The position numbers were made by a program, and so were the translations under genes. Positions 33,913 through 50,275 of a stretch of DNA of 64,000 nucleotides are shown in pieces (positions within the stretch are counted from its first letter, which is position 1; each line of letters begins with the position of its first letter). The DNA lies in contig NZ_JAPEQG010000001.1 of assembly GCF_026339735.1 (NCBI RefSeq), forward strand, positions 7,090,501 through 7,154,500, written 5' to 3'. Under the pieces are notes generated by a model. It did not search any database. It was not told the origin of the DNA and worked only from the letters and a program-made list of their open reading frames with translations. This DNA comes from Streptomyces sp. NBC_01669 (GTDB taxonomy: Bacteria; Actinomycetota; Actinomycetes; Streptomycetales; Streptomycetaceae).

Positions 33913-36900
33913 ATGAACACCATCGCTCGTAACCAGGTCATTGCAGAGGAGCAGAAGGCCGTCGACCGGGCGTACGACTGCTATACCGCGCGCCTCGCAG
34001 AGATGACCGGGACGTCGGCCGCCCAGGCCGCGGCCAGCGGCAAGGACGGTATCGCCAACCGGCTCGACGTCGTGAAGAAGGCCGAGGCGTACGGGGGACT
34101 GGGCGAGGAGTCCCTGGTGATCGCCCGTGTCGACGCGCCGGAAGATCCGGGCGAGGAGCCCCGCCCCTGGTACGTGGGCCGCCGTGCCGTATCCGATGTC
34201 CGGACCCGCGACACCGTCGTTGTGCTGTGGACCAGCCCGCTGGCCACGAAGTGGTTCGAGGCGCAGCCGCACACGCCGGGCGACGTCGTCCTGCGGCGGC
34301 AACTACGCTGTGCACAGAAGGTCGTTGAGGACTACTTCGACGACATCACCTCGGCGACTCCCGTACCCGTCGGCCCTGTGCTGGAAACCGTCCCGGAACC
34401 GCGGCCCGCCGCGGACGACGCGATCACGGCGGAGCCCGCCACCGCCGACGAGGCCGAGGCGGAAGCACCGCCCCGAGCCGCGAAGCAGCCGGAATCCAGC
34501 GAGCGCGGAAGACGCACATCGGCCCACACGCCCGCCGACGTAGCCCGGTTCCAGCGCCGCAAGCCCCTCCAGCCGGACGACTTCCTGCTCCGCGAGCTCC
34601 AGCGTTCGCGCAGCGGCCGCATGCGGGACATTGTCGAGACCATCCGCCGTGACCAGATGGACCTGGTCACGGGTTCACCCTCCGACATCCTCGTCGTGCA
34701 GGGCGGCCCGGGTACGGGCAAGTCCGCCGTCGGTCTGCACCGCGTGACCTGGCTCGTCAACAACGACCACTTCAAGGCGCAGGACATCCTCGTCATCGGC
34801 CCGCACCAGCGGTTCCTCGACTACGTCGGCCAGGTCCTGCCCACCCTCGGCACCCGCGATGTCAACGCCGTCCAGCTCTCCCGCCTGTGGGACGGCGAGA
34901 TCCTCGGCACCGACACTCCGCGGGCACGGCTGGTGAAGTCCGACGAGCGCATGGCGGCCGTCCTGCGGCGCCGCGTCGAGCACGAGTGCCGCCCCGAGGC
35001 CCTCGACGGCCACCTCACCCCACCCTCCTTCGAGGACGACGAACCGGCGTTCACCGTCACCGCCGGCAGCACGACCCTGCGCGTCCCGCGCTCGGAGGTC
35101 CGCGCCCTTCTTGATGAGGCGCGCGACGGTGACGGCTCCTACCGCGAGCGCCGCGACCGCTTCCGCAGCCTGCTCGTCGACCGGCTCCTGCGGGAACTCG
35201 TCGCCCTCGCCCCGCGTCGCGGCGCGGACGGCACGATCCGCCGCAGCCTGGAACGCAACCGCCGGGTGGAGCGCCTCCTCGAGCGTGTCTGGCCCTCGCC
35301 GGGCGCCCGGGAGGCCCTGCGCAGCCTCTACGACTCGCCCGACCTCCTGCGGGCCTGCGCCGACGGCATCCTCGACGAGGAGGAGCAGGCCGCCCTGCAC
35401 CGTCCCCGGGCCGACAAGGCCGAGGACGACCCCTGGACCCTGGACGACCGCGTCTGCCTGGAAGAACTCCGTTACCTCATCACGGGCGAGACGACGCGGC
35501 GCTACGGTCACATCGTCGTCGACGAGGCCCAGGACCTCACCCCCATGCAGGCCCGCGCCCTGCGCCGTCGCGTCGCGAGGGGCGGCTCGATGACCGTCCT
35601 CGGTGATCTCGCCCAGGCCACCGGCCCTTATCCGTACGCCGGGTGGGACCGCTTGGGGGCGCTGCTGTCCGACCATGGCGACTGGCGCGTCGCAGAGCTG
35701 ACCACCAGCTACCGCGTACCCGCCGAGATCATGGAGTTCGTCGCGCCCCTGGCCCGTGCGGTCGCCCCCTCGCTGCCTTACCCGCGAGCCGTGCGCGAGG
35801 CCGGCGCGGACGCCGTACGGACGATCGTGACCGAGCCGTGGAAGCTGCTCGGCGACACCGTCGCCCAGGCCGTTCGCCTCGTCGGCACCAGCGACGGGCG
35901 CACGCTGCGATCCGTGGCCGTCATCGTTCCCGACGACTCCGGCTGGCTCGACGAGATCGGCCGCCACCTGGACGAGGCCGACGGCATCACCGAACAGGAA
36001 CGCGAGGCGGTCTCCGTCCTGGCCGCCGCCCAGGCCAAGGGCATGGAGTACGACCACGTCCTCGTCGTCGAGCCCACCACCATTGCCGATCGCGGCCCGT
36101 CCGGCCTGCGCCAGCTCTACATCGCGCTGACCCGCAGCACCCAGAGCCTGACCGTCCTGCACACCGCGCCGCTTCCCAAGGCTCTGACGGACACCGACGG
36201 CGCCACGGAGCAGACGCTCGCCGGCATCGACGCCGACTCCGGCATTGCACCGGTGACGGAGGGAGACATCCCGGAGATCGGCACCGACATCCGGGTCCGG
36301 GTGATCGGCCACACCACCGGTGGCAACTACAAGGTCGAGGCCGTCTCACCCGCCACGGACCGCCCGCTGCTCATGGCCGTGCGCCACGGCTCCACTCCCC
36401 CCGCCGCCGGGGTGGAGCTGGACGCCTGGGTGCTCCGCCACGCCTCCAGCGTCAGCTTCGTCACGGTCGACGAGCGCGGCCGCCGGCCCATCTCGCCGAC
36501 CATGGCCACGCGGTACGCGGACGCGCTCGGCGTCGTCGAGGAACTGGCCGGCGGGAACGTCCCGGACGACGTCCGCGCCCGGCTCTCGGAGCTCAAGGGC
36601 ATGGCCAACCGCTGCCTGCGTCTGGACCAGCACGACTGGCTGGACGTCTGGCGCGTACTCGGCTCCCCGGACAGGACCCGCCTGAACCTGCTGCGGGATC
36701 TGGCGGCCAACGCCAACCGTGCGTCGGCCTCCGGCACAGCGGACCTGGACCGGTTCCGGGCCGAGCTGGAGCGCAGCGGCTGGGCCGAAGACCTGGCCGA
36801 GGCGCGGCGGACCATCGAGCGGCGCATCGGCGCCGCAGTCGACCCGGCGACGGCGAGCGAGCAGGACCGTGCATTTTCCGCGCCGCGGTCCGAGACGCCC

Positions 36901-37437
36901 GCTCCGCCCGCGCAACTCGGGGCACGCGAGGTGCCCATGCAGTCAGAGCCGAAGGAAGTCGAACCCATGACCACCACCGCAGCCGCTCCCGCCACACCGG
37001 AAGAGGCAGATCCGAGCGCGAGCTTCCGCCATGTCCTGGAGGCCTCGGTCGCAGTGGACCGCACCTGCAAGACCCATGAGGCGGTGCGCTTCGAACTGAT
37101 GGCGGCCCTCCTGCGAGCGGACCGGCAGCCGAAGTCCGACTCCCCGGTGGCCGACGTCGACTGCGTGACCGAGGACGGTCACGTGCTCTACGAAGTACTC
37201 GGCGCAGGCCTTGCCACGTACGCCGATCTCCGCTCGGGAGTGGCCCGCCTCCATGAGGTCAACCACACCCTGCCTACGCCTGCCGACCGTCTCTGCCTCA
37301 TCCTGGCCGGGCCCCCGGCCGAGGACTGGTCGGCCGCCACAGTCCACGGCGTCTTCGGCGTCCACGTCCTGTGGCGCACTCCGCAGGGCTGGGCCGGCCG
37401 GGACGTCGAAACCGCCCTGGGTACCGTCCAGGCGTGA
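33913..37437 (+). CDS. HelD-like UvrD/Rep-family helicase with C-terminal nuclease-like domain
   Basis: A 1,174-aa protein. The N-terminal 130 residues (coiled region, then PWYVGRRAVSDVRTRDTVVV) resemble HelD, an ATPase that remodels RNA polymerase. Walker A is VQGGPGTGKSAVGL (about 260), Walker B HIVVDEAQDLTPM (about 533), and late motifs AQAKGMEYDHVLVVE and QLYIALTRS (about 705-740). The last 140 residues form a separate domain with PVADVDCVTEDGHVLYEVLGAG, a pattern like a PD-(D/E)xK nuclease core but with Leu where Lys is expected. ATG 33913 follows AGGGAGGGG. It is convergent with the DUF262 gene. The island element upstream links it to DISARM. Confidence 0.82.
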   Translation: MNTIARNQVIAEEQKAVDRAYDCYTARLAEMTGTSAAQAAASGKDGIANRLDVVKKAEAYGGLGEESLVIARVDAPEDPGEEPRPWYVGRRAVSDVRTRDTVVVLWTSPLATKWFEAQPHTPGDVVLRRQLRCAQKVVEDYFDDITSATPVPVGPVLETVPEPRPAADDAITAEPATADEAEAEAPPRAAKQPESSERGRRTSAHTPADVARFQRRKPLQPDDFLLRELQRSRSGRMRDIVETIRRDQMDLVTGSPSDILVVQGGPGTGKSAVGLHRVTWLVNNDHFKAQDILVIGPHQRFLDYVGQVLPTLGTRDVNAVQLSRLWDGEILGTDTPRARLVKSDERMAAVLRRRVEHECRPEALDGHLTPPSFEDDEPAFTVTAGSTTLRVPRSEVRALLDEARDGDGSYRERRDRFRSLLVDRLLRELVALAPRRGADGTIRRSLERNRRVERLLERVWPSPGAREALRSLYDSPDLLRACADGILDEEEQAALHRPRADKAEDDPWTLDDRVCLEELRYLITGETTRRYGHIVVDEAQDLTPMQARALRRRVARGGSMTVLGDLAQATGPYPYAGWDRLGALLSDHGDWRVAELTTSYRVPAEIMEFVAPLARAVAPSLPYPRAVREAGADAVRTIVTEPWKLLGDTVAQAVRLVGTSDGRTLRSVAVIVPDDSGWLDEIGRHLDEADGITEQEREAVSVLAAAQAKGMEYDHVLVVEPTTIADRGPSGLRQLYIALTRSTQSLTVLHTAPLPKALTDTDGATEQTLAGIDADSGIAPVTEGDIPEIGTDIRVRVIGHTTGGNYKVEAVSPATDRPLLMAVRHGSTPPAAGVELDAWVLRHASSVSFVTVDERGRRPISPTMATRYADALGVVEELAGGNVPDDVRARLSELKGMANRCLRLDQHDWLDVWRVLGSPDRTRLNLLRDLAANANRASASGTADLDRFRAELERSGWAEDLAEARRTIERRIGAAVDPATASEQDRAFSAPRSETPAPPAQLGAREVPMQSEPKEVEPMTTTAAAPATPEEADPSASFRHVLEASVAVDRTCKTHEAVRFELMAALLRADRQPKSDSPVADVDCVTEDGHVLYEVLGAGLATYADLRSGVARLHEVNHTLPTPADRLCLILAGPPAEDWSAATVHGVFGVHVLWRTPQGWAGRDVETALGTVQA

Positions 37438-37441
37438 CCGG

Positions 37442-37489
37442 CACCGCCGCGGCGGTGGCCTCAGCACGGTGCCGAAAACGGCTTGAGGC
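37442..37489. terminator. Possible hairpins between convergent HelD-like and DUF262 genes
   Basis: A 16-base palindrome CACCGCCGCGGCGGTG at 37442-37457 is followed by a nested hairpin (GCCTCA...GCCG-AAAA-CGGC...TGAGGC). Imperfect, but correctly placed 5 bases after the HelD-like stop. The remaining 147 bases up to 37,636 show nothing clear. Confidence 0.4.
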
Positions 37490-37636
37490 ATGGGTGCGCC
37501 ACACGTTCGGCGAGAGTGCCCCGCCCGTGTGAACCGTTGAATGATCTGTGTGTCACGGGTCACGACCTGCTGGGCCGCCCACTGGGCGGTGTCGCGCAGG
37601 TCTCTGCCGCGCGTGAGACGGAGGTGGGCCGCGGCC

Positions 37637-40186
37637 TCAGGCCCTCCGGGCCAGGTCCAGGGCCGCTGTGTGGATGAACCAGTCCAGTGCCTCGCATATG
37701 GCCTCGCTGTGCTCGGCGAAGACGGCGAGCGGAAACGACGGACGCAGCTCCAGTTTGGCCTCGGGGAGGTCGATGCCGTCGATCTTGTTGAGCCGCTGCA
37801 GCAGCTCGCGGCGCTGCTCCGTGTCGTCGAACGGGCTGCGGTCCTTGAGGTACTGGAAGACGACCTCGGCGGTTCCGGTGACCGGGTAGAGAGCCATTGG
37901 CCACAACACGTGTGGGTGCGTACTCGTACCGGCGTCGAGCATGGGGAAGCAGCTCGTCTCGTCGTGGCGTCCGTAAGTGAGGTAGCCGCCCTGGTGACGC
38001 CAGAAGTCGAGAGTGGTGTTTACCCCGGCCACCGCCTCCGGCCGGTGTTCCCGCAGCTGGCTGCGGAAGCGCTCAGCTGCCTCCGCGTTCTCGTCGTCCG
38101 GCAGGGGATCGTGCGGGGTCTGCTGGGCGACGTCCTTGCCCAGCAGGGTGGCCAGTTCCGCGGCCGTCAGGCGCTGGGAGCGATTGGCCCGGCTGTACCG
38201 GTCGAACTGTACGCCCTCGCTCTGCAACAGCTCCTGGGGAGGCATCCGGTCGCTGCCCTCGACCCAGCGGAACGACGGCGAGATCTTGCCCTCGGAGTTC
38301 AGCACACGATAGGCGCCGATCACCGTCGGATTGGCTGCCAAGTAGGCGCCGACTGGCACCGGGTGGCTGCCGATGAGCTCGGCGACGTCGCCGTACGCCG
38401 TCCATGTGCCGCTGGGCATCGCGACCAGCGCTGCCCGCAGTTCCGCCCAGCTCGACAACTCCTCGGCGGCCGGGCGGAACCCACCGATCGGACCCGGCCA
38501 CAGCTCCACGGCACGCTCCCAGAGGCGGTCGGCGCGGGCCGTGATCTCCGCTTTGCCCCAGCGATTCGAGGAGGCGATCTCCAGGTTCATCCGCAGCGCG
38601 CTGGAGTCGAGGATCTGCTGCTTGCGCTGGAACGGGTGGTTGGAGAGCTTGGAGTTGTCGCCGGTCAGGGTCAGGTTGCCCAGGGTGTGCACCAGCAGGT
38701 CGTGCAGCTCCTGGGGTGACTGGCCCTCCTCCGTCTCGTCGGCGAGGAGATCGAACCACGCCTGCGCCGGCCGCTGGGGGAGGATGTGCTCGACGCTGAG
38801 GGACGCCTTGGCGAAGTCGACGGGCTCGGTGGGGGAGTAGCTCTCCTCCAGGCGGCGCAGGATGTAACTGCGCTGCGGCGGGCGTCCGCCCCAGTAGAAC
38901 GGCTTGCTGCGGATCGCTGTCCGCAGCTCCTCGTCGCTCGGCCACCGGCGCCGCTTCCCCGACAGGAAGCGCCGGACGGCCTCGGCCGCCGGGCGGTCGG
39001 TCTCCAGGTCCTTCGGAGCCTCCATGAAGATGCGGTTGATACCGGCGGTCGGTGTCTGGCAGATCAGGCGCCTGGCCAGGTAGGACTCGACGTACCGCAG
39101 AGCCTCGGCCGCGTCCTCCGGGCTCGTGGAGCCCGCGTCGATGAGGTCCAGCAGATGCAGGGCCAGGGGGTAGTGCGTCTGTCCGCCCCATGCGGCCAGG
39201 CGTTCCAGCGCCGCGCGCAGGGGCGCCGACCGCTCGCGGTCGGGTTCGACGATGCGGAGGAACCGCTGGGCGCGCTCCGACAACTGGGCGATCTCGTGCT
39301 GCAGCGCCTTCTCGTCACCGGCGAGCGGCTGCAGCCGCTTCTGCTGCTCGCGGTAGATCTCGCTCTGCTTGGTCTTGTAGTGACCGCGTACGACCAGATC
39401 CAGCCAGACCAGCAGTTCGAGGTTCTTGGGGCCGAGGCTCTGCTGCATGGGGAGCCACAGCTCCTGGTAGACGCGCTCGCCGCGCTGGGGCAGCAGCATG
39501 AACACGTAGTTGCGCAGCAGGTCGCTCTGGCTGAGGCCGACGCCCGTGTTGTTGATCGACTCGAAGATCCGGTAGACGTTGTCACCCGGCTCGGCGGTGA
39601 TCTCCACGATCGACAGCAGACCCTTGAGAACGCTCTCCACGGTTTCCAGCCAGCCCTCCGAGGCGGCAGCCTCCTGCCCCTCGGTGAGTACTCCGCGGAA
39701 GAACCGGTACGCGCCGCCGATGTTGTCGCCGCCGCCGGCCTGAGGCGTGGACGCGACGCACGCCGTGTACGCCTCCCGGTCCGCCTGCGTGGGCAGCAGA
39801 CGGTAGTGGCCCAGGCCGTCCTGGTATTCGTTGACGAGGATCTGCCGGTGCACCCGATCGGCGCCACGTGGGTCACCCGACTCCTTGAGCTGGTCGCGCA
39901 GCGCGGTGAACGCCAGCATCAACGTGGTGAGACGCTGCTGACCGTCCACGACCAGCCATTTCTGTACTCCGCCGGCCTGGATCTGGCCCGGCGCGAGAAC
40001 GACGGAGCCGAGGAAGTGCGGTGCCGCTGCCTCACCCGCCCGGTGCTGCTCGACGAGCTCGCCCACGTCCTCCCAGAGTCGCAGCAGCTGATCCCTGCCC
40101 CAGCTGTACGTCCGCTGGTAGAGCGGGACTTGGAACTGCTTCTCCCCCTGGACGAGATTGAGGAAGGTGATTTCCTGGGCGCGCAT
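37637..40186 (-). CDS. DUF262-DUF1524 (GmrSD/BrxU-like) nuclease with internal alkyltransferase-like domain
   Basis: An 849-aa protein. DUF262 is N-terminal with the NTP-linked motif KWLVVDGQQRLTTL near residue 83. A long helical middle is followed by the DUF1524 HNH nuclease: SLSVEHILPQ near 464 and HTLGNLTLTGDNSKLSNHPFQRK near 500-525. Residues about 588-640 (TWTAYGDVAELIGSHPVPVG ... AYRVLNSEGKIS) match the DNA-binding fold of MGMT/ATL alkyltransferase-like proteins without an active cysteine. The C-terminal 200 residues are unrecognised. GmrSD, BrxU and SspE of this class cut modified phage DNA or act on phosphorothioate signals. ATG 40186 follows AAAGGAAG. Last gene of a three-gene operon. 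Confidence 0.85.
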   Translation of the reverse strand: MRAQEITFLNLVQGEKQFQVPLYQRTYSWGRDQLLRLWEDVGELVEQHRAGEAAAPHFLGSVVLAPGQIQAGGVQKWLVVDGQQRLTTLMLAFTALRDQLKESGDPRGADRVHRQILVNEYQDGLGHYRLLPTQADREAYTACVASTPQAGGGDNIGGAYRFFRGVLTEGQEAAASEGWLETVESVLKGLLSIVEITAEPGDNVYRIFESINNTGVGLSQSDLLRNYVFMLLPQRGERVYQELWLPMQQSLGPKNLELLVWLDLVVRGHYKTKQSEIYREQQKRLQPLAGDEKALQHEIAQLSERAQRFLRIVEPDRERSAPLRAALERLAAWGGQTHYPLALHLLDLIDAGSTSPEDAAEALRYVESYLARRLICQTPTAGINRIFMEAPKDLETDRPAAEAVRRFLSGKRRRWPSDEELRTAIRSKPFYWGGRPPQRSYILRRLEESYSPTEPVDFAKASLSVEHILPQRPAQAWFDLLADETEEGQSPQELHDLLVHTLGNLTLTGDNSKLSNHPFQRKQQILDSSALRMNLEIASSNRWGKAEITARADRLWERAVELWPGPIGGFRPAAEELSSWAELRAALVAMPSGTWTAYGDVAELIGSHPVPVGAYLAANPTVIGAYRVLNSEGKISPSFRWVEGSDRMPPQELLQSEGVQFDRYSRANRSQRLTAAELATLLGKDVAQQTPHDPLPDDENAEAAERFRSQLREHRPEAVAGVNTTLDFWRHQGGYLTYGRHDETSCFPMLDAGTSTHPHVLWPMALYPVTGTAEVVFQYLKDRSPFDDTEQRRELLQRLNKIDGIDLPEAKLELRPSFPLAVFAEHSEAICEALDWFIHTAALDLARRA

Positions 40187-40230
40187 GTGCTTCCTTTCCC
40201 TGCCGCGAACCGGCGACTGTACGGAGCGCC

Positions 40231-40599
40231 TCAGCGCGATCGGTAGTGCTTCGCCAGGTGCGCGAGCTCGCGTGCCCAGAGCTCGGTGTCGTCACCGGGG
40301 CGGGAGAAATGGTCGCGGCGGGCGAGCTGGAAGAAGCCGCCGGACGGCCACATGGTGGCTTTGAGTACGACGAGGGCGGACAGCATCGGCAGAGATCCGT
40401 CGGGGCTCCGGCGCAAGGACGCGTCCTCCAGGAGATACGACATCGGCCCTCGGTGAGCCGGTACGTCATGTCCCTGCCGGGCCGGCTCGGCGCTGAGTGC
40501 GCCGTAGGTGAGGGGTTCCGCACCGGCGGCGGCGCGCGTCTGCAGGACGCCCACCGTGGCGTCCAAGGCCTGCTCGTACTCCAGCGTGTTCCTCTTCAA
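40231..40599 (-). CDS. Small protein upstream of the DUF262 nuclease
   Basis: About 122 aa, starting at TTG 40599 after GGGAGGG (a TTG at 40620 lacks a ribosome site). The C-terminal segment PMLSALVVLKATMWPSGGFFQLA is a recognisable motif in uncharacterised actinobacterial proteins often seen beside restriction-like genes (from memory). No catalytic motif or membrane segment. It ends 44 bases before the nuclease start on the same strand, so the two are almost surely co-transcribed; a regulator, inhibitor or substrate adaptor of the nuclease is a guess. Confidence 0.7.
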   Translation of the reverse strand: MKRNTLEYEQALDATVGVLQTRAAAGAEPLTYGALSAEPARQGHDVPAHRGPMSYLLEDASLRRSPDGSLPMLSALVVLKATMWPSGGFFQLARRDHFSRPGDDTELWARELAHLAKHYRSR

Positions 40600-40707
40600 G
40601 TGCCCTCCCCAGGACTGCAACTGACACGGTAGTGGATCAGCCTGGTGGTGCGTGACGGTTCATGTGCACAGGGTTGCTGCTGCCGGTCGATCGTGCGGTC
40701 ATGCCTG

Positions 40708-41538
40708 CTAGCCGGCGCCCATGACCACTGTGTGGTTCGAGATCTTGGGCATCGTCTCGTTGGGGGAGCGGCGCAGCAGTTTCATGCTGCGGCCTTCGAC
40801 CCACGCGTTCCAGGACTTGAGGTAGTACAGGAGGTGCTCGCGGGAGTCGTCGCGGCGGCGGTGGGCCTTGCCGCTGGCCAGGCTGAGCATGGTGTTGCGC
40901 AGGGTGAGGCGTGGGTCGCCGGACTCCAGCAGTGCGCCCGTGAGGATGCCGTCCCGCCATGCGGTCTGGTCGATGTCGGGCCGTGTTTCGGTGGTGACGT
41001 ACCAGCCGATCGTCGCTGCGGTGACGGTGATGCGGCAGGCGCGATTGAGTGCGACGCCGTGGTGGAGGGCGTCGCGCATGCCGGGGTGCTGCTCCAGCAT
41101 CACCAGAAGTTGATCGTTGCTGGTGACCGACGAGCCGCCGCTCCACGCGGAGTCCGGGGCGTTCAGGTAGAGGTGGAGGCCGCGCAGGGCTGCTGCGAGG
41201 TGTGTGGCGTTGGCTTCGCCTGCGAGTGCGAGAGCATCGCGGCCAGTGCGCTTGCGGCCTGTGTCCATGACCGTGAAGGCGGTCCGGGGCACGCCGTGTG
41301 TGACGGTGAGGGGCACCGTCGTGCCTGCTTTGACGATCGCGGCCAGGCGGTGCTGACCGTCGATCAGTACATCGTCCTCGTCGAAGGCGATGCCCTGATG
41401 CGTGAGCTGCCATTCGCCCCGCTGGATCTGGGCGGCGAGCTGTTGAACGGTGTTCTTGCTGAGCGGCCGGTTGTTGGTGTTGAGCGTCAGCCACTGAGCG
41501 GCCAACTCGGGTGAAACGCTCAGAACTTCCATATGCAT
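40708..41538 (-). CDS. ParB/sulfiredoxin-fold (DGQHR-motif) protein
   Basis: A 276-aa protein with a ParB-N-like core: QLAAQIQRGEWQLTHQGIAF followed by VLIDGQHRLAAIVKAGTTVP, the DGQHR box at residues 60-64. ParB-fold proteins bind or hydrolyse CTP or act as nucleases (Srx/DndB/DGQHR families); DndB-type members regulate defence islands. No helix-turn-helix is evident in the remainder. ATG 41538 is chosen over the longer frame to 41,631, which would run through the regulatory element. It is the first gene of the operon running into the small protein and the DUF262 nuclease, and divergent from the large helicase. Confidence 0.75.
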   Translation of the reverse strand: MHMEVLSVSPELAAQWLTLNTNNRPLSKNTVQQLAAQIQRGEWQLTHQGIAFDEDDVLIDGQHRLAAIVKAGTTVPLTVTHGVPRTAFTVMDTGRKRTGRDALALAGEANATHLAAALRGLHLYLNAPDSAWSGGSSVTSNDQLLVMLEQHPGMRDALHHGVALNRACRITVTAATIGWYVTTETRPDIDQTAWRDGILTGALLESGDPRLTLRNTMLSLASGKAHRRRDDSREHLLYYLKSWNAWVEGRSMKLLRRSPNETMPKISNHTVVMGAG

Positions 41539-41609
41539 GGCGTGATGGCCCTTCCGGAGGCGACACAGGGCGGCGTGTGAAACGCTGCAGGATCGAGTGT
41601 GCTTCAGTC

Positions 41610-41624
41610 TGTGAACTGAGTCAA
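41610..41624 (+). promoter_or_regulatory. Island element, copy D1 (ParB-like operon / large helicase)
   Basis: TGTGAACTGAGTCAA, identical over 15 bp to the drmA copy. On the minus strand its TTGACT end can serve as a -35 box: 17 bases later is CACACT (41596-41601), a near -10, 58 bases before the ParB-like start. On the + strand it is followed by CATGTTG. Confidence 0.8.
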
Positions 41625-41980
41625 TCGACATGTTGCGTGGATTATGCGACGTTGCCTGAAACTTGGTGCCGGTGGTGCGGTCGGGTAGGTGAGGACTCTT
41701 GCGGCAGTCGGGGAGGTGAGTGCGGGGGTGTCGGGCTCGGTGGTGAGTTTCGGCAGTGACCCTCGTGGGTCGCAGGTGGGTTGGGGCCGGCCGATCGCAT
41801 GGCTGCGATGCCTGGAGGGGCGGTTTGTGGTGCGAGGTTGCTGGTACGCTCCGTGCGTGTGCTCAGTTCACACTGGGGTGGGTTGCGCTGGGGGGCGCGT
41901 GCTGCACTCGTACCCCGGGTGGCTGGGGTGGGATTTCACAAGCAGGCCACCTCGTGGCCTCAGTAGCAGTGGAGTGGCGT
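41625..41980. other. Long leader of the large helicase gene
   Basis: About 355 bases between element D1 and the GTG start at 41,981. The helicase frame is open in the last 225 bases but reads as low-complexity Gly/Arg/Trp/Cys with atypical codons, so I treat it as untranslated. It carries element copy D2 and long G-rich stretches near 41,770-41,930. Confidence 0.5.
41858..41872 (-). promoter_or_regulatory. Island element, copy D2 (large helicase leader)
   Basis: The + strand TGTGCTCAGTTCACA is the reverse complement of TGTGAACTGAGCACA: three mismatches, all at the TTGACT end, to copy D1. It lies 108 bases before the GTG start, so it may be the element that serves this gene directly. The sequence is also a near palindrome (TGTGC...TCACA). 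Confidence 0.55.
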
Positions 41981-44900
41981 GTGAGCCAGAGTGAGAGTGC
42001 GCTGAGCGACGGCATTCGGCCGGTCGGTTCCGTTCATCATTACGACGACGGGCTGCACGTCCGCGTCGACGGCGTGATGCCGTACGAGCTGGTGGACGCC
42101 GATGACTCCCACGGGTACCGGCAGGGCGATGACCTGGTCCGATGCACTCTGTACCTGAGCAACGGAACCGGACGGCCCTTGGAGGTCGACGGGATCAGTC
42201 TGTTGGTCCGTGGTGGCCCGTACGGAAAGACGGCCCGCCAGGTGCAGGACTACCGGACCGAGTTGCTCGACGACGAACTGGGCGGAACGCTGCGCACGGG
42301 GCGGAGGATTTCGGCGACCTGGGCGTACAGCATTCCGGCCGGCACCGCCGGAGAGCTGGACTTCGAAGTGCAGTTCAGGGGCAATCACGAACGTGAGAGC
42401 GTCACGTTCACCACTGCAGGTGCGACGGCCACGACATACCCCATCGACCCCCGCGTACCGGCCGCACGAAAGGAACAGGCACCGCTTCCCGATCAGGCCG
42501 TGCTGTTCGGGGACGAACAGCGTTCCCTGTTCGGGACTGCCGAGCCGGACGTTGCCGACGACTACGTCCTCGGCGCTGCGGAGAGGCCGGCCGCCACGGT
42601 CCCTTCCGACTCCTCGGTCATGCCTGTGCAGCCTGCCGTTCCCGCCCGCGCTGCCGTACCCGCGCGGACGCAGCAACTGTCCGCCGACGAGACCGACGCC
42701 CTGCGCGTCCGCCAGATCTTCCGTTTCCTCGCCGAGGCCGAGGAGTCCAAGGCCCGCCCGGTCCGCACCCTGGACGGGGCAGCCGGAACCGTGTGGTTCG
42801 ACGAACTGCCGGACGACCCCGCGGTCGCTGTGATGCTCGACGGGGTGCTCTCCACCGACGAACCCGCCTGGCTGACGGTCGCCCGCCCCGACCGTGAGGA
42901 TGCCCCGCAGCCGCAGCCGCTCCTCGCACCCTGGGTCGACGAGACGCGCGTTCGTGACTTCAAGCAGACCCGAGCCCCGCATCTGCGCCGACGCATCGAG
43001 CCTGAGTTCCCCGACTGGTCCGCGGGAATTCCGCTGGAGAAGACCTACCACGAGCTGGAGGACCACCCGAAGCGGGAAAGGATCGAGAAGCTGTACGCGG
43101 CCTGGGAGCAGGCGTGGACGGCCTGGGCCGAGCGACGGCGTGCGATCGACCCGCTCGTCAGACTGTACGACCGGCTCCACAAGATGCACGAGGACGCAGC
43201 GAACCTCGGCGAGGCCTATGAACTCGTCCTCGGGTTCGGCCGGCTGACCTGGCAGACGACCGGCGGCCAGCGCGTGGAACGGCACCTCGTCACCCACCGT
43301 GCCACCATTCAGCTCGACCCGTCCACCGGCACGCTCACCGCCGCACCGGACCCGACCGGCATCGGCATGGAGCTCGAAGAGGGCATGCTCGACGGCGCGC
43401 AACATGTCCCGGGCCCGGTACGCGAGGCCATTGTCGAGGTGCTCGAAGGTGCCTCGGACGCCAGCGACCCCGAACACCTGGAAGCCCTGCACACTGCCCT
43501 ACGCAGCTGGGTCAACGCCGCCCACAGTGCCGGGAGTTATCTGCCGACCGCCGAGCGTGTCAAGCCGCGCAGCCTCGACGTACCGTATGTCGGGCTCACA
43601 CCGGCGCTCGTGCTGCGCGAGCGCAACCGCCGCTCCACGCTTGACGCCCTCAAGGCCATCGCCCGCCAGATCGACGGCGGTACACCCCCCACCGAGCTGC
43701 TCGGCTACATTGCGGGCCGCGACGGAGCCCTCACCGCCGCCGACCTGGCGGCGGCGGACGCCCACGGGACGCCGCCCGGGACCGGCGAGATGTTCTTCGC
43801 GCTGCCCGCCAACGAGGAGCAGCGCACCATCGCGGAACGCCTGCGTGCCAACCGGCTGGTGGTCGTGCAAGGCCCCCCAGGCACCGGCAAGACGCACACC
43901 ATCGCCAATCTGGTGACGGACCTCCTCGCACAGGGCAAGCGTGTTCTGATCACCAGCCACACACCGCGCGCGCTGCGTGTGCTGCGGGACAAGCTGCCCG
44001 AATCGGTGCGCGACCTGTGCGTGAGCCGCACCGAGGACGGCGCGGCAGCGCAGCGTGAGCTCGAAGCGTCCGTCAGCAAGATCCTCAGCGAGTACTCCGG
44101 TTACGACCAGAAGGCCTCACAGCGCGAGATCGACGCTCTGCAGGCGCGGCTGACCCGCGCCCGGTCCGTGCAGCAGACCATGCTGCGTGACCTGGCCGTG
44201 CTGCGGGAGCAGGAGACTCGTCGCTTCCCGGCGGAGATCGGCGACTACAGCGGAAGTCTCCAGGAGATCGCCGAGCGTGTGGCCGCGGAGACCGGGACGT
44301 ACGAGTGGATCGGTCCGGTGCCGCAGGAGCAGCCCGCTCCGGTCACCGACGACGCGATACGGCTCCTGCACGCCACCCGTGCGTTCACACCGCATCACCA
44401 GACGCTCGCTGCCGAGGTACCCGGACCCTCCGAACTGGTGGGACCCGGCGACTTCGAGGAGGCCGTCGGCGTCGTGCGCTCGGCGGCGGAGGCGCACGCG
44501 GCGGTGCGTCAGGACCCGCTGAGTCTGCAGTACGACACCGCTGTGCGCGGTCTCGCCGAGAACGACCAGCAGCGGCTCTCGACGACCCTCGATGCGTTCG
44601 CCGGGGCACGGGCGCGTGCCGGGTCGCTGGCCGGTGCGGCAGGTGAGTGGGCCGAGGTGCTCCTGCGAGAGGTGGCCGCGGGACAGGACTGGCAGACCCG
44701 CAGCCGGCACGCCGCTGTGACCGGTGCCCTTGCTGCCGTCGATGCCTCGCTCTCGACCCTGCGTAACTGCATGGTCAGCGGACTGGAGCAGTACGACCCG
44801 GCCGCTGCGCTCGGCCAGGCCATCGCGCTGCTCGACGGGCTGCGGCAGGGACAGAAACTGCGCGGCCCGCTAGGCATACGGTCGAAACTCGCCAAGGCCG

Positions 44901-47900
44901 TCGGTCCGTTCGTGGAAGGCGTGCGCGTCGACGGGCGATCCCCCGAGGACACCGACACCGCAGCCGTCGTCATCGCCCGGATCCAGCTCGAACTGCACCT
45001 CTCCCAGGTTGAGTCCGAGTGGGGAACGCCCGCGGCTCCGTGGCAGGGACACGGCCCGCGCCTGGCCCGTCTCAGGCAGGAGGCCGAAGCTCTCGAAGCA
45101 CTCCTTGCGGTCGCAGCCGCCCGCACCGATGTGCTCACTGCTGCCGCGACCTCCCCGGAACTGTCCGCGGCCACATGGCACGACCGGGCCGTCGAGAACG
45201 CCGTACGGGCACTCCTTCGCGCAGCGACCACCCTTCGCGCCGCCGAACAGTCGCGCCGGATCATCGCAGACACCGAGGAACTGCTGCGTGTGTGGAGCGA
45301 CCGGCCGGGCGTCTCGCCCGCCGTGCCTCGCGCTCTTGACGCCGTGCGCGCCCAGAACCCGGACGGCTACCGCGAATTCAGCCAGGAGATCGCTGAGGTC
45401 CGCGAGGCTGCCCGGCTCCGGGCCGAGCAGCACGAGGCCATGACAACAGTGCGCGAGCTCTTCCCGTCCCTTGCCGAGCGGATCGCCCGGACTCCCGAAG
45501 ATCCCGACTGGGACGAGTGCCTGCCCGCCCTGGCCAGGGCCTGGGCCTGGTCCGCGTGGCGGGACCGGATGGAGCGGCTCACGGACCCCGACGCCGACCG
45601 CACCTTGCGGAAACGGCTGACTGAAGCCGACGACGAGGCCCGGATCATGCTCGCGCGGCTTGCCGCGGCCCGGGCCTGGCACCGCTGTCTCGGACTGCTC
45701 ACCGGCGACCAGTCGCGTGCGCTGAGCGCGTACCAGCAGGCCGCCCGCCGGATCAAGGGCAAGTACCAGCATCGCTACCGGCGCGATGCACAGGAGGCGC
45801 TGCGCAAGGCACAGAGCGCCGTGCCCGCCTGGATCATGCCTCTGCACCAGGTCGCGGAGACAGTGCCCATGGACCGGCCCGGTATGTTCGACGTCGTCAT
45901 TGTCGACGAGGCCAGTCAGTCCGGTCTCGAGGCCATGCTGCTCAGCTGGCTCGCCGACCGGATGGTCGTCGTCGGTGACAGCAAGCAGGTCAGCCCTTCC
46001 AACGTCGGTCTCAAGCAGGACGAGTACTTCCAGCTCCGGGACCGGCTCCTCACCGGTCTCGAAGGGGACGTGCGCAGTCTCTTCGGGCCCGAGTCCAGCT
46101 TCTTCGATCTCACCGAGGCGCTGTCGGCAGGGCGCGGCACGCTCATGCTCAAGGAGCACTTCCGGTGCATGCCGGAGATCATCTCCTTCTCCAACGAGCT
46201 CTGCTACAACGGCCGGCTGCAGCCCCTGCGGCAGTACGGCGCCGACCGGCTGCCCCCGGTGCGGACGGTGTACGTCGAGAACGGTGAGGCGGTCGGTGCC
46301 AACAGTCGCCTGGCCAATGTCGCCGAGGCCGAAGCGCTCGTCGCCGAGATCGTGCGCTGCTGCGCCGACCCCGCGTACGACGGCAAGACCATGGGAGTCA
46401 TCAGCCTGCGGGGAAGCAAGGCACACCTGGCTGAACTGGAGAACCTGCTGGCGGAGCGGCTCGACTACGAGCAGCGGGAGGAGCGGCGCATAAGGGTCGG
46501 CGACGCCGAGGATTTCCAGGGCGACGAACGCAACGTCATGTTCATTTCGACCGTCAACTCACCCACGACCGCTGCCGGGACAGTACCCGGAGGCTTCAAC
46601 GGAAAGACGTACGAGCAGCGTCTCAACGTGGCTGCCTCCCGTGCCCAGGACCAGCTCTGGGTGTTCCACAGCGCCCGCACCGAGCAGTTCCACGAGAACG
46701 ACCTCCGTCGCCAGTGGCTGGACCACCTCGGCCGGCCCGCGGAGGAGGAGACCGTCGCGGTCGTGGGCGAGGTGCTGCCCGACGTACGGCACGAGGCGTT
46801 CGACAGCCTCTTCCAGCAGCAGGTCTACCTGGAACTGACGGGGCGCGACTATCGCGTGCGCCCCGGGTACCGGGTGGGCCGCCACGCCATCGACCTGGTT
46901 GTCGAGGGCGGTACGCGGCGGCTCGCCGTGGCCTGTGACGGCGACGTGTTCGCACAGGGAGAGGACGCCTCGACCGCGGCGGCCCGCCAGCGCGACCTGG
47001 AGCGTGTCGACTGGACCTTTGTCCGTATCCGGGGGAGCCGCTTCCACCTGGACCGTGAGCAGGCACTGGCCCCGCTGTGGGCGGAACTGGAGCGGCTGGG
47101 GATCGAGCCGGTCACCGATGCACCGGAGGCCGATGTTCCCCAGGGCGAGCTTCCCGGGACGACCGGAAGCGTGGAGGGCGACGAGAACGCCGAGATCCTG
47201 GCCGGGCCCGGGGAGAGGGACGGGATCACGGGCATCGGGGCGGCAAGGACCGCGGCTGTCGGGACTGTGCGTTCGCAGGCGGAGGTTCCGGCGGTGATCG
47301 ATTCCGAGCCGGCGGAGCCGGCTGTCTCCGCACCCACGCCCCTGGCCGTGCCCGCTCCCGTCACCGTGAACTCGGTGGCTTCCGCGACACCACCCGCTTC
47401 TGTGACGCCGCCTGCGGCCACTCGTGACGCACAGAAGTACCGCGACACTCCGCTAACCCCGCCTGGTGCATTCCCGGTGCGGGAGATCCCCGTCGCAGCC
47501 TTCCAGCGGCTGGTTCGGGAGATGCAAGAGCTGCAGCTCACTCTCGATGCTCCCGAAGAGACGCCGGAAGGCCTCGATGTCCGTCTCGACGCCGCGAAAC
47601 TCGTATTCCTGCGCAAGACCCAGGCCGATCAGCGTGATCGCCGCGCCAAGCGTCTGGCCTTCCTGCGGGCGTTCGTCGACGCGGTTGCCGTCGGAGACTC
47701 GGCCGAAGCACCGCAGGTGGTCATTCCCGGCGCGCTTCTCGTCCTGGAGTTCGACGGTCAGGTAGACGGGGAGACTCTGTACACGGTCGCCGAACTGGCC
47801 GAGGACGGCGCGGACATCGTCTCCCCATCCTCGCCGCTGGGGCATGCCCTGATGTGGCAGCGAGCGGGGCGTGAGCTGTCGTACCAGGCATCCCAGGACA

Positions 47901-47938
47901 AGGCGCACACGGTGGTCGTGCGCGAGATTCGGGCCTGA
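41981..47938 (+). CDS. Giant SF1 helicase with DUF559/Vsr-like nuclease and GreA/B-C-like C-terminal domain
   Basis: A 1,985-aa protein. After a unique 550-residue N-terminus comes Walker A VVVQGPPGTGKTHTIANL (about 630), a long helical insertion (700-1,290), FDVVIVDEASQSGL (about 1,302), HFRCMPEIISFSNELCYNGR (about 1,393), DAEDFQGDERNV and RLNVAASRAQDQLWV (about 1,500-1,555), the SF1 Upf1-like set. Residues about 1,605-1,710 form a PD-(D/E)xK nuclease (HAIDLVV ... LAVACDGD) of the DUF559/Vsr type. A Pro/Ala linker leads to residues about 1,913-1,985, VVIPGALLVLEFDG ... IVSPSSPLGHAL, like the RNA-polymerase-binding C domain of GreA/GreB. GTG 41981 has GGAG 6 bases upstream. Confidence 0.82.
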   Translation: MSQSESALSDGIRPVGSVHHYDDGLHVRVDGVMPYELVDADDSHGYRQGDDLVRCTLYLSNGTGRPLEVDGISLLVRGGPYGKTARQVQDYRTELLDDELGGTLRTGRRISATWAYSIPAGTAGELDFEVQFRGNHERESVTFTTAGATATTYPIDPRVPAARKEQAPLPDQAVLFGDEQRSLFGTAEPDVADDYVLGAAERPAATVPSDSSVMPVQPAVPARAAVPARTQQLSADETDALRVRQIFRFLAEAEESKARPVRTLDGAAGTVWFDELPDDPAVAVMLDGVLSTDEPAWLTVARPDREDAPQPQPLLAPWVDETRVRDFKQTRAPHLRRRIEPEFPDWSAGIPLEKTYHELEDHPKRERIEKLYAAWEQAWTAWAERRRAIDPLVRLYDRLHKMHEDAANLGEAYELVLGFGRLTWQTTGGQRVERHLVTHRATIQLDPSTGTLTAAPDPTGIGMELEEGMLDGAQHVPGPVREAIVEVLEGASDASDPEHLEALHTALRSWVNAAHSAGSYLPTAERVKPRSLDVPYVGLTPALVLRERNRRSTLDALKAIARQIDGGTPPTELLGYIAGRDGALTAADLAAADAHGTPPGTGEMFFALPANEEQRTIAERLRANRLVVVQGPPGTGKTHTIANLVTDLLAQGKRVLITSHTPRALRVLRDKLPESVRDLCVSRTEDGAAAQRELEASVSKILSEYSGYDQKASQREIDALQARLTRARSVQQTMLRDLAVLREQETRRFPAEIGDYSGSLQEIAERVAAETGTYEWIGPVPQEQPAPVTDDAIRLLHATRAFTPHHQTLAAEVPGPSELVGPGDFEEAVGVVRSAAEAHAAVRQDPLSLQYDTAVRGLAENDQQRLSTTLDAFAGARARAGSLAGAAGEWAEVLLREVAAGQDWQTRSRHAAVTGALAAVDASLSTLRNCMVSGLEQYDPAAALGQAIALLDGLRQGQKLRGPLGIRSKLAKAVGPFVEGVRVDGRSPEDTDTAAVVIARIQLELHLSQVESEWGTPAAPWQGHGPRLARLRQEAEALEALLAVAAARTDVLTAAATSPELSAATWHDRAVENAVRALLRAATTLRAAEQSRRIIADTEELLRVWSDRPGVSPAVPRALDAVRAQNPDGYREFSQEIAEVREAARLRAEQHEAMTTVRELFPSLAERIARTPEDPDWDECLPALARAWAWSAWRDRMERLTDPDADRTLRKRLTEADDEARIMLARLAAARAWHRCLGLLTGDQSRALSAYQQAARRIKGKYQHRYRRDAQEALRKAQSAVPAWIMPLHQVAETVPMDRPGMFDVVIVDEASQSGLEAMLLSWLADRMVVVGDSKQVSPSNVGLKQDEYFQLRDRLLTGLEGDVRSLFGPESSFFDLTEALSAGRGTLMLKEHFRCMPEIISFSNELCYNGRLQPLRQYGADRLPPVRTVYVENGEAVGANSRLANVAEAEALVAEIVRCCADPAYDGKTMGVISLRGSKAHLAELENLLAERLDYEQREERRIRVGDAEDFQGDERNVMFISTVNSPTTAAGTVPGGFNGKTYEQRLNVAASRAQDQLWVFHSARTEQFHENDLRRQWLDHLGRPAEEETVAVVGEVLPDVRHEAFDSLFQQQVYLELTGRDYRVRPGYRVGRHAIDLVVEGGTRRLAVACDGDVFAQGEDASTAAARQRDLERVDWTFVRIRGSRFHLDREQALAPLWAELERLGIEPVTDAPEADVPQGELPGTTGSVEGDENAEILAGPGERDGITGIGAARTAAVGTVRSQAEVPAVIDSEPAEPAVSAPTPLAVPAPVTVNSVASATPPASVTPPAATRDAQKYRDTPLTPPGAFPVREIPVAAFQRLVREMQELQLTLDAPEETPEGLDVRLDAAKLVFLRKTQADQRDRRAKRLAFLRAFVDAVAVGDSAEAPQVVIPGALLVLEFDGQVDGETLYTVAELAEDGADIVSPSSPLGHALMWQRAGRELSYQASQDKAHTVVVREIRA

Positions 47939-47953
47939 CACCAGGGCCGAACA

Positions 47954-47995
47954 CCCCGACGGACCAATCGCCTTGAGCCGGGCGGTCCGTCGGGG
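47954..47995. terminator. Bidirectional hairpin terminator
   Basis: Perfect 12-bp arms CCCCGACGGACC and GGTCCGTCGGGG around an 18-base loop, between the convergent stops of the large helicase and the UvrD-type helicase. Confidence 0.82.
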
Positions 47996-47999
47996 CTGC

Positions 48000-50171
48000 T
48001 CAGCCGGCGACCGGGTCGAGCATCGGGCTGCGCTGCCCGCTCCACGAGATGGCCAACGCGTCACGGGCGCGTGTGCACGCCACGAAGAGCAGACAGTGCT
48101 CGGCCAGCAGATCCGCCTGATGCTGCAGGGGATCCACTTCGGCGGACGTGACCTGGTGTGCGAACGGCAGCACGGCGGAGGTCACACCGACCACGGCCAC
48201 ACAGCGGAACTCCAGTCCCTTCATGGCATGCATGGTGGCCACGCGTACCCCCGACGTCCCTGGACCCGGATCGTCCTTCACCGCGACTGCGGGGATGCCC
48301 TCCCGGCGCAACCGAGCGATGACCGCGTCGACCAGGGTGTTGAAACGGGCGCACACCGCGACCTCGGAAGGCTTCACCCCGTCCTGATCGATCCAGATCC
48401 GGACCTGCTCGATGAGTGCCCGGAGCTCCTCGTCCTGACTGCCGTACCCGCGTGCCGCAGGAATGCGGCCGTGCAGCTGGGAGCGGTAGCCCCGCAGCGA
48501 GTCGCGGCCGCCGTCGTCCTCGTCGTCCTCACCGAGTCGGCCCACCGGTTGACCATCCAGCAGCGACGCCGACCAGCGCAGGATCTCCTCCGTGCTGCGG
48601 TAGTTGAGACGCAGCCGCGAGGTCCGGCCACGGACCTGGACACCCAGCGAGCGCAGCGACACCCGGGAGTCGTAGATGCGCTGATGGGGATCGCCGACGA
48701 GGAACATGTCGTCCGACCGAGGTGCCACACCGGCGCGCAGCACCCGCCACTGCGCGGGGTGAAGGTCCTGGGCCTCGTCGACCACGACATGGCGGTAGCG
48801 CGGACCGCTGTCGGCGAGGGTGCGCGCGGCCCGGTCGCACAGCTGTGTGTACGTGGCCGAGTCACGGGACGCGAGGTCGGCCGTGAACCGTTCCATCACG
48901 CGCCACAGCCGGGCCCGTTGCACGCGCCCCACCTGTGTGCCGCGCCCCCGCCGTACACAGCGCAGATACTCCTCAGGCGTACGCAGTCCCTGGGCGAGGA
49001 CGACGTTGCGGAACTCCTGGGACAGGAACTGTTCGGTCCACGGCAAATCCTCGCGGGCCGTGGCACGGGTCCAAGCGCTCTTTTCGGCGGCGGCAGAGAG
49101 AGGTCTGGGAGTGCTGCCCCGCGCCTCCCGGATGACCCGGGCGGCGAATGAGTCCACCGTCGTCACGTCGACGCGTTCCAGAAGGTGTGCGTCCGCCTCA
49201 CCGAGCAGGAGCGCCAGGCTGTCCCGCAGTGCGGACGCCATGGCGTTGGTGAACGTGGTCAGCAGTATCCGGTCGCCGTCGCGGCCGGTGCGCAGCAGGT
49301 GGCGTACACGGTGCAGTGCCACCACCGTCTTGCCGGTGCCGGGCCCACCCGTGACCTGGGCCGGTCCGTTGAAGCCCGGATGATAGGCATAGCGACGCTG
49401 AGCGGGATGAAGGAAGATCCGCCAGCGGGTGAGATCCTCGGTGAGGATGCGCTCCAGTTCACCAGGACCGGTGACCTCCACGATGCGATTGGGGGTGTTG
49501 AGAATCGCTTCGGCGAAGGTGACGGTGGGCCGGTCCTCGGCCGTACGGACCGTCTGGCCGCGCGGAGCGATCAGTTGCTCCCACACGTCTTCGGCGGAGT
49601 AGTCGGCCGCGAGGTACTCCAGCACCTCGTACTGGTCGGCGGGCATCATCGGCGGTGCCATGACTGTCAGGTCCTCAGCGGTGACGCAGACGCGGGCCAG
49701 GCGCAGGACCTGGTCGTCGATACCGAGGTCGCGCAGCACGGTGTCGGAGTGCTGTTCGAAGAGGCGGGTGGGGGTGGTGACCGCCTTCGTTTCGAAGTAT
49801 GTCTCCATCTGTTCCAAGGCTTCGACATTGCGTACTTCGAGGCCTCCGGTTGCGCCGTTGACGGAGTACGCGCGCTTGCAGGCCCAGTTGATCGCCTCGT
49901 CGTGCGCGGCGACCCTCAACAGCGTGAACAGCTCACTTCCGTCGTCCGGAGCGAGAAGCACACCTCGGTAGAACTTGGTGATGCGTATCGTGCGGATCCG
50001 GTGGTCGCGAGCCCGTTCGAGCTTCTCGAGATGCATGCCCTTGCTGGCATGGAGCTGCGGGACGGTCATGCTCCGGAACATCTGGATCGCGTCGTTGACC
50101 TCCTTCTGTACAGGTCGCTGCAGCGAGATGAGGTCTGCGACGAAGTCGTCGGAGAGAGCGAGTCGGGGCAT
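48000..50171 (-). CDS. UvrD/Rep-type helicase with RelE/ParE-like N-terminal domain
   Basis: A 723-aa protein. Residues 1-105 (LISLQRPVQKEVNDAIQMF ... RTIRITKFYRGVLL ... RVAAHDEAINWACKR) match the RelE/ParE-like fold that precedes many bacterial UvrD-type helicases. Helicase motifs: VTGGPGTGKTVVALHR (about 275), YRHVVVDEAQDLHPAQW (about 460), GDPHQRIYDSRVSLRSLG, LRLNYRSTEEIL, ATMHAMKGLEFRCVAVVG (about 648) and LLFVACTRARD. An SF1A 3'-5' helicase is expected. ATG 50171 is just inside the divergent region with drmA, which carries element E. No C-terminal nuclease. Confidence 0.85.
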   Translation of the reverse strand: MPRLALSDDFVADLISLQRPVQKEVNDAIQMFRSMTVPQLHASKGMHLEKLERARDHRIRTIRITKFYRGVLLAPDDGSELFTLLRVAAHDEAINWACKRAYSVNGATGGLEVRNVEALEQMETYFETKAVTTPTRLFEQHSDTVLRDLGIDDQVLRLARVCVTAEDLTVMAPPMMPADQYEVLEYLAADYSAEDVWEQLIAPRGQTVRTAEDRPTVTFAEAILNTPNRIVEVTGPGELERILTEDLTRWRIFLHPAQRRYAYHPGFNGPAQVTGGPGTGKTVVALHRVRHLLRTGRDGDRILLTTFTNAMASALRDSLALLLGEADAHLLERVDVTTVDSFAARVIREARGSTPRPLSAAAEKSAWTRATAREDLPWTEQFLSQEFRNVVLAQGLRTPEEYLRCVRRGRGTQVGRVQRARLWRVMERFTADLASRDSATYTQLCDRAARTLADSGPRYRHVVVDEAQDLHPAQWRVLRAGVAPRSDDMFLVGDPHQRIYDSRVSLRSLGVQVRGRTSRLRLNYRSTEEILRWSASLLDGQPVGRLGEDDEDDGGRDSLRGYRSQLHGRIPAARGYGSQDEELRALIEQVRIWIDQDGVKPSEVAVCARFNTLVDAVIARLRREGIPAVAVKDDPGPGTSGVRVATMHAMKGLEFRCVAVVGVTSAVLPFAHQVTSAEVDPLQHQADLLAEHCLLFVACTRARDALAISWSGQRSPMLDPVAG

Positions 50172-50260: not shown

Positions 50261-50275
50261 TGTGAACTGAGTCAA
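50261..50275 (+). promoter_or_regulatory. Island element, copy E, within the drmA/UvrD divergent promoter
   Basis: TGTGAACTGAGTCAA, identical to copy D1. It lies between a + strand -35-like TTGTGT (50258-50263) and a TATGTT -10 (50281-50286) with a 17-base spacer, so it overlaps the spacer of the likely drmA promoter, 67 bases before the drmA start. A bound protein would block or bend that promoter. On the minus strand its TTGACT could serve the UvrD gene with TACTGT 19 bases on. Confidence 0.8.

Follow-up and report, generated by a model that had tools for sequence, protein, structure and literature searches.

Does the group of genes lodged between the two halves of a DISARM locus in Streptomyces represent a defence module of its own? 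The stretch of DNA considered here (the window) comprises 64,000 nucleotides of the 10.8-Mb genome of Streptomyces sp. NBC_01669 (G000:C3:7090501-7154500; G and L numbers denote genomes and fetched loci, respectively), in which positions 33913 to 50171 had been put forward in an earlier note as a candidate new defence module, here called the block A-E. The block indeed lies inside a DISARM island, being flanked by DrmD and DrmMI on one side and by DrmA, DrmB and DrmC on the other; all five proteins are recognised by PADLOC models and the locus is therefore of type 1 DISARM. A new module as such is not borne out, since protein E, judged by its sequence, belongs to the ARMADA type II/DISARM-like family, protein B has a known architecture, protein A and a small open reading frame (ORF) are optional, and the operator shared by the block covers drmA and other genes as well. 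A self-contained new system is thus not supported, and the block genes look like exchangeable parts of a regulon rather than a module.

The reading preferred here, with a probability of about 0.55, is that the block forms an accessory zone of the type 1 DISARM island that is run as one regulon of N6MT, a protein with a predicted helix-turn-helix (HTH) head and an N6-adenine DNA methylase. In its general form, the same reading holds that such an HTH-N6-adenine methyltransferase is probably the master switch of a modular, operator-tagged Streptomyces regulon, whose members (DISARM, ARMADA-like, pPIWI-RE and GmrSD systems, helicases and swappable cargo) would join by way of a 16-bp site, with parallel regulons working through other HTH heads. 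Homologues were examined in 295 species of Streptomyces, eight genome-scan loci, plasmids and individually fetched stretches; genes in the fetched loci were called with a simple codon-bias script.

The operator and its placement

The operator-like element that the earlier note had seen as common to the units of the block is real. Three copies of GTGAACTSAGTCAA exist in the whole genome, at 33667, 41611 and 50262, all of them in or next to the block, and the wider pattern TGTGAACWNAGTCAAY has four copies in the 10.8 Mb, all within the island, the fourth being a related site at 12518 in the promoter region of N6MT and the first kinase. Pattern scans placed TGTGAACAAAGTCAAT (12518..12533, reverse strand) between the N6MT gene (10443..12479, reverse) and kinase 1 (12564..13523, forward), TGTGAACTCAGTCAAT (33666..33681, forward) between a Septum_form gene (32616-33494) and the gene for A, and TGTGAACTGAGTCAAT (41610..41625, forward) on the C side of the interval between C and D. 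A weaker variant, TGTGAACTGAGCACAC (41857..41872, reverse), lies at the presumed promoter of D. Between E and drmA, TGTGAACTGAGTCAAC (50261..50276, forward) falls between the two boxes of a possible drmA promoter, TTGTGT-17-TATGTT.

The pattern TGTGAACWNAGTCAAY was found at 62 sites in 32 of the 295 genomes, while a reversed control pattern was found in none. Islands of the DISARM clade and those bearing D, 650 kb in all, contain 53 sites, where first-order shuffles lead one to expect 0.1. Of these sites 50 lie at most 350 bp 5' of a called gene start, as compared to 21% of random positions; of the other three, one is within a drmA gene call that is too long and two are elsewhere. This placement bears on the suggestion that the element is mainly a methylation target of N6MT, serving as an epigenetic mark or self-label rather than as a transcriptional operator. 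Target recognition by the HTH and the presence of adenines on both strands of the site would suit such a role, which is nevertheless improbable given that 50 of the 53 sites are at promoters and that four exact sites in 10.8 Mb are far too few for a genome-wide self-mark.

A site was present 5' of E, facing drmA where that gene is present, in all 13 genomes viewed, including G131, which has no drmA, and G289, in which drmA is broken. In most loci viewed, the drmA site falls in the 17 bp between boxes resembling TTGTGT and TATATT, a position that fits repression, activation also being possible. The interval between C and D mostly carries two sites, the one on the D side being TGTGAACTNAGCACAC, with a low score in a weight matrix that was built from the same sites it afterwards rescored. 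Further sites stand ahead of A, of the small ORF and of variable cargo genes in other genomes (c17, c31, c32 and c43); they are often of a weaker form, with GTGCAT or GTGCAC at the end.

The site extends beyond DISARM. In site-bearing loci outside the DISARM clade it occurs at N6MT, at a kinase and at kinase-N6MT clusters. In L139 it stands at a kinase facing genes for a DruE/YprA-like helicase, a DpdE/DrmD-like helicase, a DrmMI-like methylase and an E relative; the ARMADA components are present but the gene order is not the strict one of ARMADA type II, and the locus is called ARMADA-like. Kinase-N6MT clusters with relatives of PprPDDEXK, PprDinG and PprPIWI correspond to pPIWI-RE (by PADLOC on L085 and, for the others, by similarity to L085). 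pPIWI-RE-type genes together with the kinase and N6MT were seen in L085, L130, L133, L135, L136, L138, L142, L146 and L147, and an additional site variant ending in CCAT in L135, L142, L146 and L147. pPIWI-RE has been described as a three-gene system, with no associated methylase gene in the portion of the source available (PMC3702460). Among the titles and abstract openings of openly licensed PMC papers, no account was found of an operator or regulon common to DISARM or to several defence systems.

N6MT as the candidate regulator

N6MT is proposed as the island regulator on the strength of its Pfam domains, the site at its own promoter and its co-occurrence with the operator. Orthologues were defined by an E-value of at most 1e-118 and an alignment beginning no later than query residue 19, so as to include the HTH; this threshold and those for close D and close E (below) were fixed after the lists had been seen. 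Such orthologues are present in 35 of the 295 genomes, that is, in 30 of the 32 genomes bearing a site and in five of the 263 others (p 1.5e-33). Three genomes with shorter matches that reach the HTH (G088, G089 and G186) were left out; when counted in, the figures become 30/2/8/255 (p 2e-31). The family at large is common, with 215 of the 295 genomes matching at 1e-40, and among the matches listed most begin after the HTH. Of the 62 sites, 55 lie within 60 kb of an N6MT gene on the same contig, and the other seven comprise four in split assemblies (G032, G099), one in G029, where N6MT is on other contigs, and two in genomes lacking N6MT.

Genomes with a DrmA at least 73% identical carry both N6MT and the site (13/13), while four with a DrmA of 61-63% (G015, G110, G122 and G227) carry neither; both are also absent from G113, which has D and E. 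The promoter of N6MT itself carries an operator-like site, as judged by eye, and an exact or near-exact copy was found in 22 of 22 loci picked from the set read by eye; the regular expression used there fixes most of the operator letters, such that the information content is partly built in. The sequence upstream of N6MT was read in 29 of the 35 orthologue genomes; five more have, by coordinates, an exact site close by on the 5' side, and G009 was left out. The five orthologue genomes devoid of the exact pattern have a variant 5' of N6MT, of which only half is present in G087.

The six N6MT members compared all have the methylase motifs NPPF and DPACG, and their HTH segment is almost unchanged. 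Across the loci read, differences in the HTH were seen, by eye, to accompany differences in the site in a broad way: GVGRAAVSNWRRRHDSFP goes with TGTGAAC-N3-GTCAAY, GVTRAAVSNWRRRY with TGTGTACGNNGTCAAC or a sequence one letter off in four of seven loci, and GVTRATVSNWRRRH with GAAAGC-N3-GTCAAACA-like sites in three of three. Islands of the GVTRAAVSNWRRRY type hold 11 related sites against 0.3 expected, 10 of which are 5' of genes, including the promoters of N6MT, of McrB/sigma-factor genes and of SMC-like genes. In restriction-modification systems, repression by a methyltransferase of its own gene, through an N-terminal HTH bound to a promoter operator, is established (PMC3874152).

Several observations weigh against N6MT as the switch. 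All six members match HTH_17 weakly (18.4 bits in the window against a cut-off of 27, the best E-value being 0.001). Two genomes (G053, G220) have a site and no N6MT orthologue, and G039 has DISARM (DrmA 61%) with a 47% N6MT on another contig and lacks the exact site. The presence or absence of N6MT beside DISARM follows two DrmA clades and is thereby confounded by descent; the covariation of HTH and site likewise follows descent and is to be taken as support, not proof. N6MT could also belong to the regulon without regulating it. On the side of the presumed effectors, the altered nuclease site of D and the RelE-like head of E, which is not confirmed by fold (both discussed below), count in the same direction.

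Could another protein read the operator, with N6MT as only its frequent target gene? The candidates are an HTH_31-DUF5753 protein (23810..24655, reverse; identified by Pfam), protein C, or a chromosomal factor. The first of these adjoins drmMI in many DISARM loci and is the rival candidate regulator within the window. As a general regulator it was rejected, no relative having been seen in the maps (9.6 to 20 kb) of the 18 site-bearing loci L130-L147; C, among the fetched loci, always lies within the B-D block, and the absence of the exact site from 263 of the 295 genomes is contrary to a chromosomal factor. A different reader is therefore considered possible, though doubtful.

The gene content and order, the operator, its positions and its association with N6MT are observed. 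Under the preferred reading, in which N6MT is the reader, its binding, its effect, the trigger and the biochemical roles of the island proteins may be envisaged as follows. The promoters that N6MT would bind, at TGTGAACTNAGTCAAC, are those of its own gene, of the kinase-DISARM operon, of A, of C and D, and of E and drmA, and while bound it would hold them low. Phage DNA that titrates or disables N6MT, or a changed methylation of the site, would then raise expression of the whole island together. E may work with DrmA in the manner of ArmD with ArmC in ARMADA type II; B may cleave cytosine-modified phage DNA missed by DISARM, and so complement it as BrxU complements BREX (PMC8565348); and transcription complexes may be the target of D, and of A where present, by way of Gre-like and HelD-like contacts.

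Association among the block genes

Six ORFs, at the positions given in the following section, are supported between 33913 and 50171, one fewer than the seven proteins once counted there. The order B-C-D-E beside drmA was found in 10 of the 295 genomes, with every genome having a close D viewed; these are the window, G065, G179, G157, G136, G009, G197, G230, G032 and G099, in the last of which D is shortened. A close D (79% identity or better over a core of 452 residues) is present in 14 of the 295 genomes and a close E (66% or better) in 16, and all 14 genomes with a close D have a close E (Fisher p 3.8e-22), one of these E being a partial match at a contig end; D relatives at 44-47% were left out of this comparison.

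The families do associate with one another, as the figures for D with E (14/14) and for B-C-D-E (10/295) indicate, contrary to the refuting case of the earlier note, in which they never would. Four of the 14 close-D genomes (G131, G173, G113 and G221) have no DrmA match at an E-value of 1e-50, and G289 has fragments of DrmD and DrmA with full-length D and E. B-(C)-D-E without DISARM is seen in G131, and also in the stretch fetched from Actinacidiphila acididurans, in which N6MT, B, D and E are present and no drmA is found in the 7.7 kb past E.

The conserved order beside drmA, the constant company of close D and close E, and the two loci with B, D and E but no drmA are what would speak for B-C-D-E (with A) being a new defence system that is complete in itself and embedded in DISARM. 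This interpretation is nevertheless unlikely, as the genes also occur in other combinations: D and E occur with neither an adjoining B nor any DrmA match in G173 and G113 (L110), D-E-drmA lacks B and C in S. poonensis (L170), nine genomes have a divergent B-E pair (E 44-47%) without D, in fetched stretches of which some contain DISARM genes and some do not, and a D at 62% is found without a close E in G097, G248 and G033. Further, A is present in few genomes, E is ArmD-like and found also near other DrmA-like helicases, and the operator is common to drmA and other systems. The varied combinations therefore point to recurrent partners, not to one fixed system.

The block proteins and their known relatives

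Protein E (48000..50171, reverse), convergent with D, is a UvrD helicase by Pfam. Full-length relatives (33.6%) were found on Escherichia coli plasmids by tblastn; with the plasmid protein, residues 2-718 align at 34% identity, and its gene is the fourth after those for a DrmD/BrxHII-like helicase, a methyltransferase and a DruE-like helicase. ArmD of ARMADA type II is an essential UvrD helicase with a RelE-like N-terminal domain, encoded in a strict order ArmA-B-C-D with a YprA-like helicase of the ARMADA/Druantia branch that bears a fused Vsr nuclease (PMC12458937). Judged by its sequence, E is an ArmD-type protein, a member of the published ARMADA type II/DISARM-like family. Of the earlier description of E as a UvrD protein with a RelE-like domain, the helicase stands and the head is not confirmed: no RelE/ParE family was among the matches listed for 12 members (25/29 Pfam families), and the fold model of the first 120 residues (predicted local distance difference test, pLDDT, 45) is too poor for use. 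The RelE-like/ArmD label is given because of the full-length similarity to an ArmD-type protein.

E proteins at 52-55% lie near DrmA-like and DrmB-like genes in other Streptomyces islands, several of which also contain an N6MT relative, McrB, McrC and a sigma factor. L091-L093 and L098 show an N6MT relative, E, McrC, McrB, a sigma-70 protein (MzaA-like), DrmA-like, DrmB-like and UvrD-like proteins, with related operator variants. PMC11090510 mentions McrBC as associated with DISARM-like genes; compared with the window, such islands share the N6MT relative, the ArmD-type E, the DrmA/DrmB-like genes and related sites, and differ in having McrB, McrC and the sigma factor in place of DrmD, DrmMI and B-D.

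The link of the window with ARMADA type II is E, whose full-length identity to the product of the fourth gene in the ARMADA-type run on an E. coli plasmid is 34%. The window differs in that DrmA and DrmB are of the DISARM type and separate, DrmC is present and the order of genes is another; neither the YprA-like/Vsr helicase nor the ArmA-B-C-D order was found, the best matches of DrmA being DISARM models, and no ArmC-type helicase was detected among the proteins scanned. The locus agrees with DISARM type 1 in having drmD (14894..18274, forward), drmMI (18271..22578, forward), drmA (50353..54177, forward), drmB (54174..56066, forward) and drmC (56063..56827, forward) all at one place, and departs from it in being split by accessory genes and flanked by N6MT and two kinases, in the divergence of E from drmA and in one operator over several units.

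Protein B (37637..40186, reverse) consists of GmrSD_N, GmrSD_C and PF01035 domains in Pfam, which upholds the DUF262/DUF1524 nuclease with an alkyltransferase-like (ATL) domain recognised earlier. It carries DGQQR and HNH-type motifs in one chain, the domain set of the GmrSD type IV enzymes; from its sequence, B is a known type IV enzyme architecture. Fusions of DUF262, DUF1524 and PF01035, mainly from Streptomyces, are noted in PMC4619093. The ~190 C-terminal residues of B gave no Pfam hit. In repair enzymes the alkyl-accepting cysteine is carried by the motif PCHR; at its place, the PF01035 domain has AYRV or AHRV in the four sequences printed, which fits a domain that only binds. GmrSD and BrxU likewise join DUF262 and DUF1524 in a single chain (PMC4619093, PMC8565348), and B lies inside DISARM as brxU lies inside BREX (PMC8565348); B, which may cleave DNA with modified cytosine, differs in its ~190 extra residues. 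A match to B at 1e-30 or better was obtained in 62 of the 295 genomes, and neighbourhoods were fetched for 41 (30 + 11) of the 61 outside the window. B is represented by two overlapping open frames in L085-L086 (G289) and L089-L090 (G047).

The small ORF (40231..40620, reverse; 129 residues) had been taken for a partner of B. In the fetched neighbourhoods a clear homologue adjoins B only in the window and in G065; a weak match (34%) is found at a distance of 0.5 kb from B in G009, and the remaining homologues are kilobases away. The partnership was therefore rejected, and neighbourhoods and gene-call clusters identify the ORF as mobile cargo. Protein C (40708..41538, reverse; 276 residues) received no support as a ParB-like protein from Pfam or the PDB, including a search of the PDB with a C profile, and a DGQHRL motif noted by eye is the sole hint in that direction. 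An in-frame search and gene-call clusters agree that, in the fetched loci, C is seen solely together with B and D. The most probable start of C is 41538, and that of D is near 41981.

Protein D (41981..47938, forward) belongs to an ORF of 2060 residues that opens at 41756, with AAA_11 and AAA_12 (superfamily 1 helicase) and MTES_1575 (nuclease fold) domains in Pfam. Its last 170 residues match GreA_GreB (PF01272) in nine of nine members, the window member scoring below the Pfam cut-off; a profile of this region ranked Gfh1 first in the PDB with a weak E-value of 0.045, and the first 12 Foldseek hits of a model with a mean pLDDT of only 57 were Gre factors (best E-value 0.029). The giant helicase-nuclease with a GreC-like domain described previously thus keeps its helicase, its nuclease fold and, weakly, its Gre-like end, and its nuclease motif is altered: ACDGD is present in 11 of the 17 D proteins examined, including that of the window, and the motif was not found in two, while ECDGD is retained in G173 and in the three more distant D of G097, G248 and G033. 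The E-to-A replacement makes activity doubtful, and the nuclease of D may be inactive. Membership of D in Mokosh, Hhe or PDC-S37 was rejected, as the matches were partial, the best being to PDC-S37 over 1346-1781.

Protein A (33913..37437, forward) is a HelD-family helicase by Pfam and matches the RNA-polymerase-associated HelD of Mycobacterium smegmatis (6yxu, E-value 2e-46); the nuclease-like tail also ascribed to it found no nuclease match in Pfam or the PDB. Among the fetched loci A was found elsewhere only in G065, G116, G201, G222 and G029, and is regarded as optional cargo. It adjoins B in G201 and is near B in G065 and G222, and in G029 the pair of A and Septum_form with its operator site is repeated.

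The regulatory arrangement resembles that of EcoRII, SsoII and Ecl18kI in its putative N-terminal HTH on a methyltransferase and in an operator-like site in the promoter of that gene (PMC3874152), and differs in that N6MT is an N6-adenine enzyme with sites at many non-homologous promoters and several defence systems. BrxR (WYL) and RptR (PMC12255303) are likewise single regulators over a defence island, but the proteins and sites are different, and the sites seen here extend over distinct systems and changing cargo. The usual picture of a defence island is that of a set of mutually independent systems. If the N6MT regulon is real, the new part would be several defence systems forming the regulon of one HTH-methyltransferase: DISARM, ARMADA-like and pPIWI-RE systems and cargo would be switched jointly, new genes would be recruited by gain of a site, and defence genes still to be described could be searched for by means of the site. 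The window itself contributes a DISARM whose putative ArmD-type subunit forms a link to ARMADA, and a helicase bearing a Gre-factor-like end.

As regards the remainder of the island, N6MT and two PD-T4-6-like Ser/Thr kinases (PADLOC; kinase 2 at 13552..14874, forward) lie 5' of DISARM. Between DrmMI and DrmA are found, by Pfam and gene calls, the HTH-DUF5753 gene, two transposases, one IS4-like (24927-26162) and one IS30-like (29338-30732), located between that gene and A, and then the block. In this transposase zone 5' of A the cargo differs among related genomes. In L039 (14297-15439) the cargo gene c23 encodes MerR-type HTH and DNA polymerase III beta-clamp domains and is again near B in G109, and in L048 (1714-2553) c46 reads by eye as a BRCT domain followed by a nuclease-like region. 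At 254-7927 the window carries a radical SAM protein with weak pVip similarity, a TIR protein and a ParA-like/TIR/NB-ARC/TPR protein of 1311 residues, an 88% identical relative of which lies near N6MT in G029 (L143). A DNA polymerase III alpha-type (DnaE2-like) gene (57717-61172) follows drmC on its 3' side, as it does in G065 and G179, and is possibly the chromosomal edge of the island.

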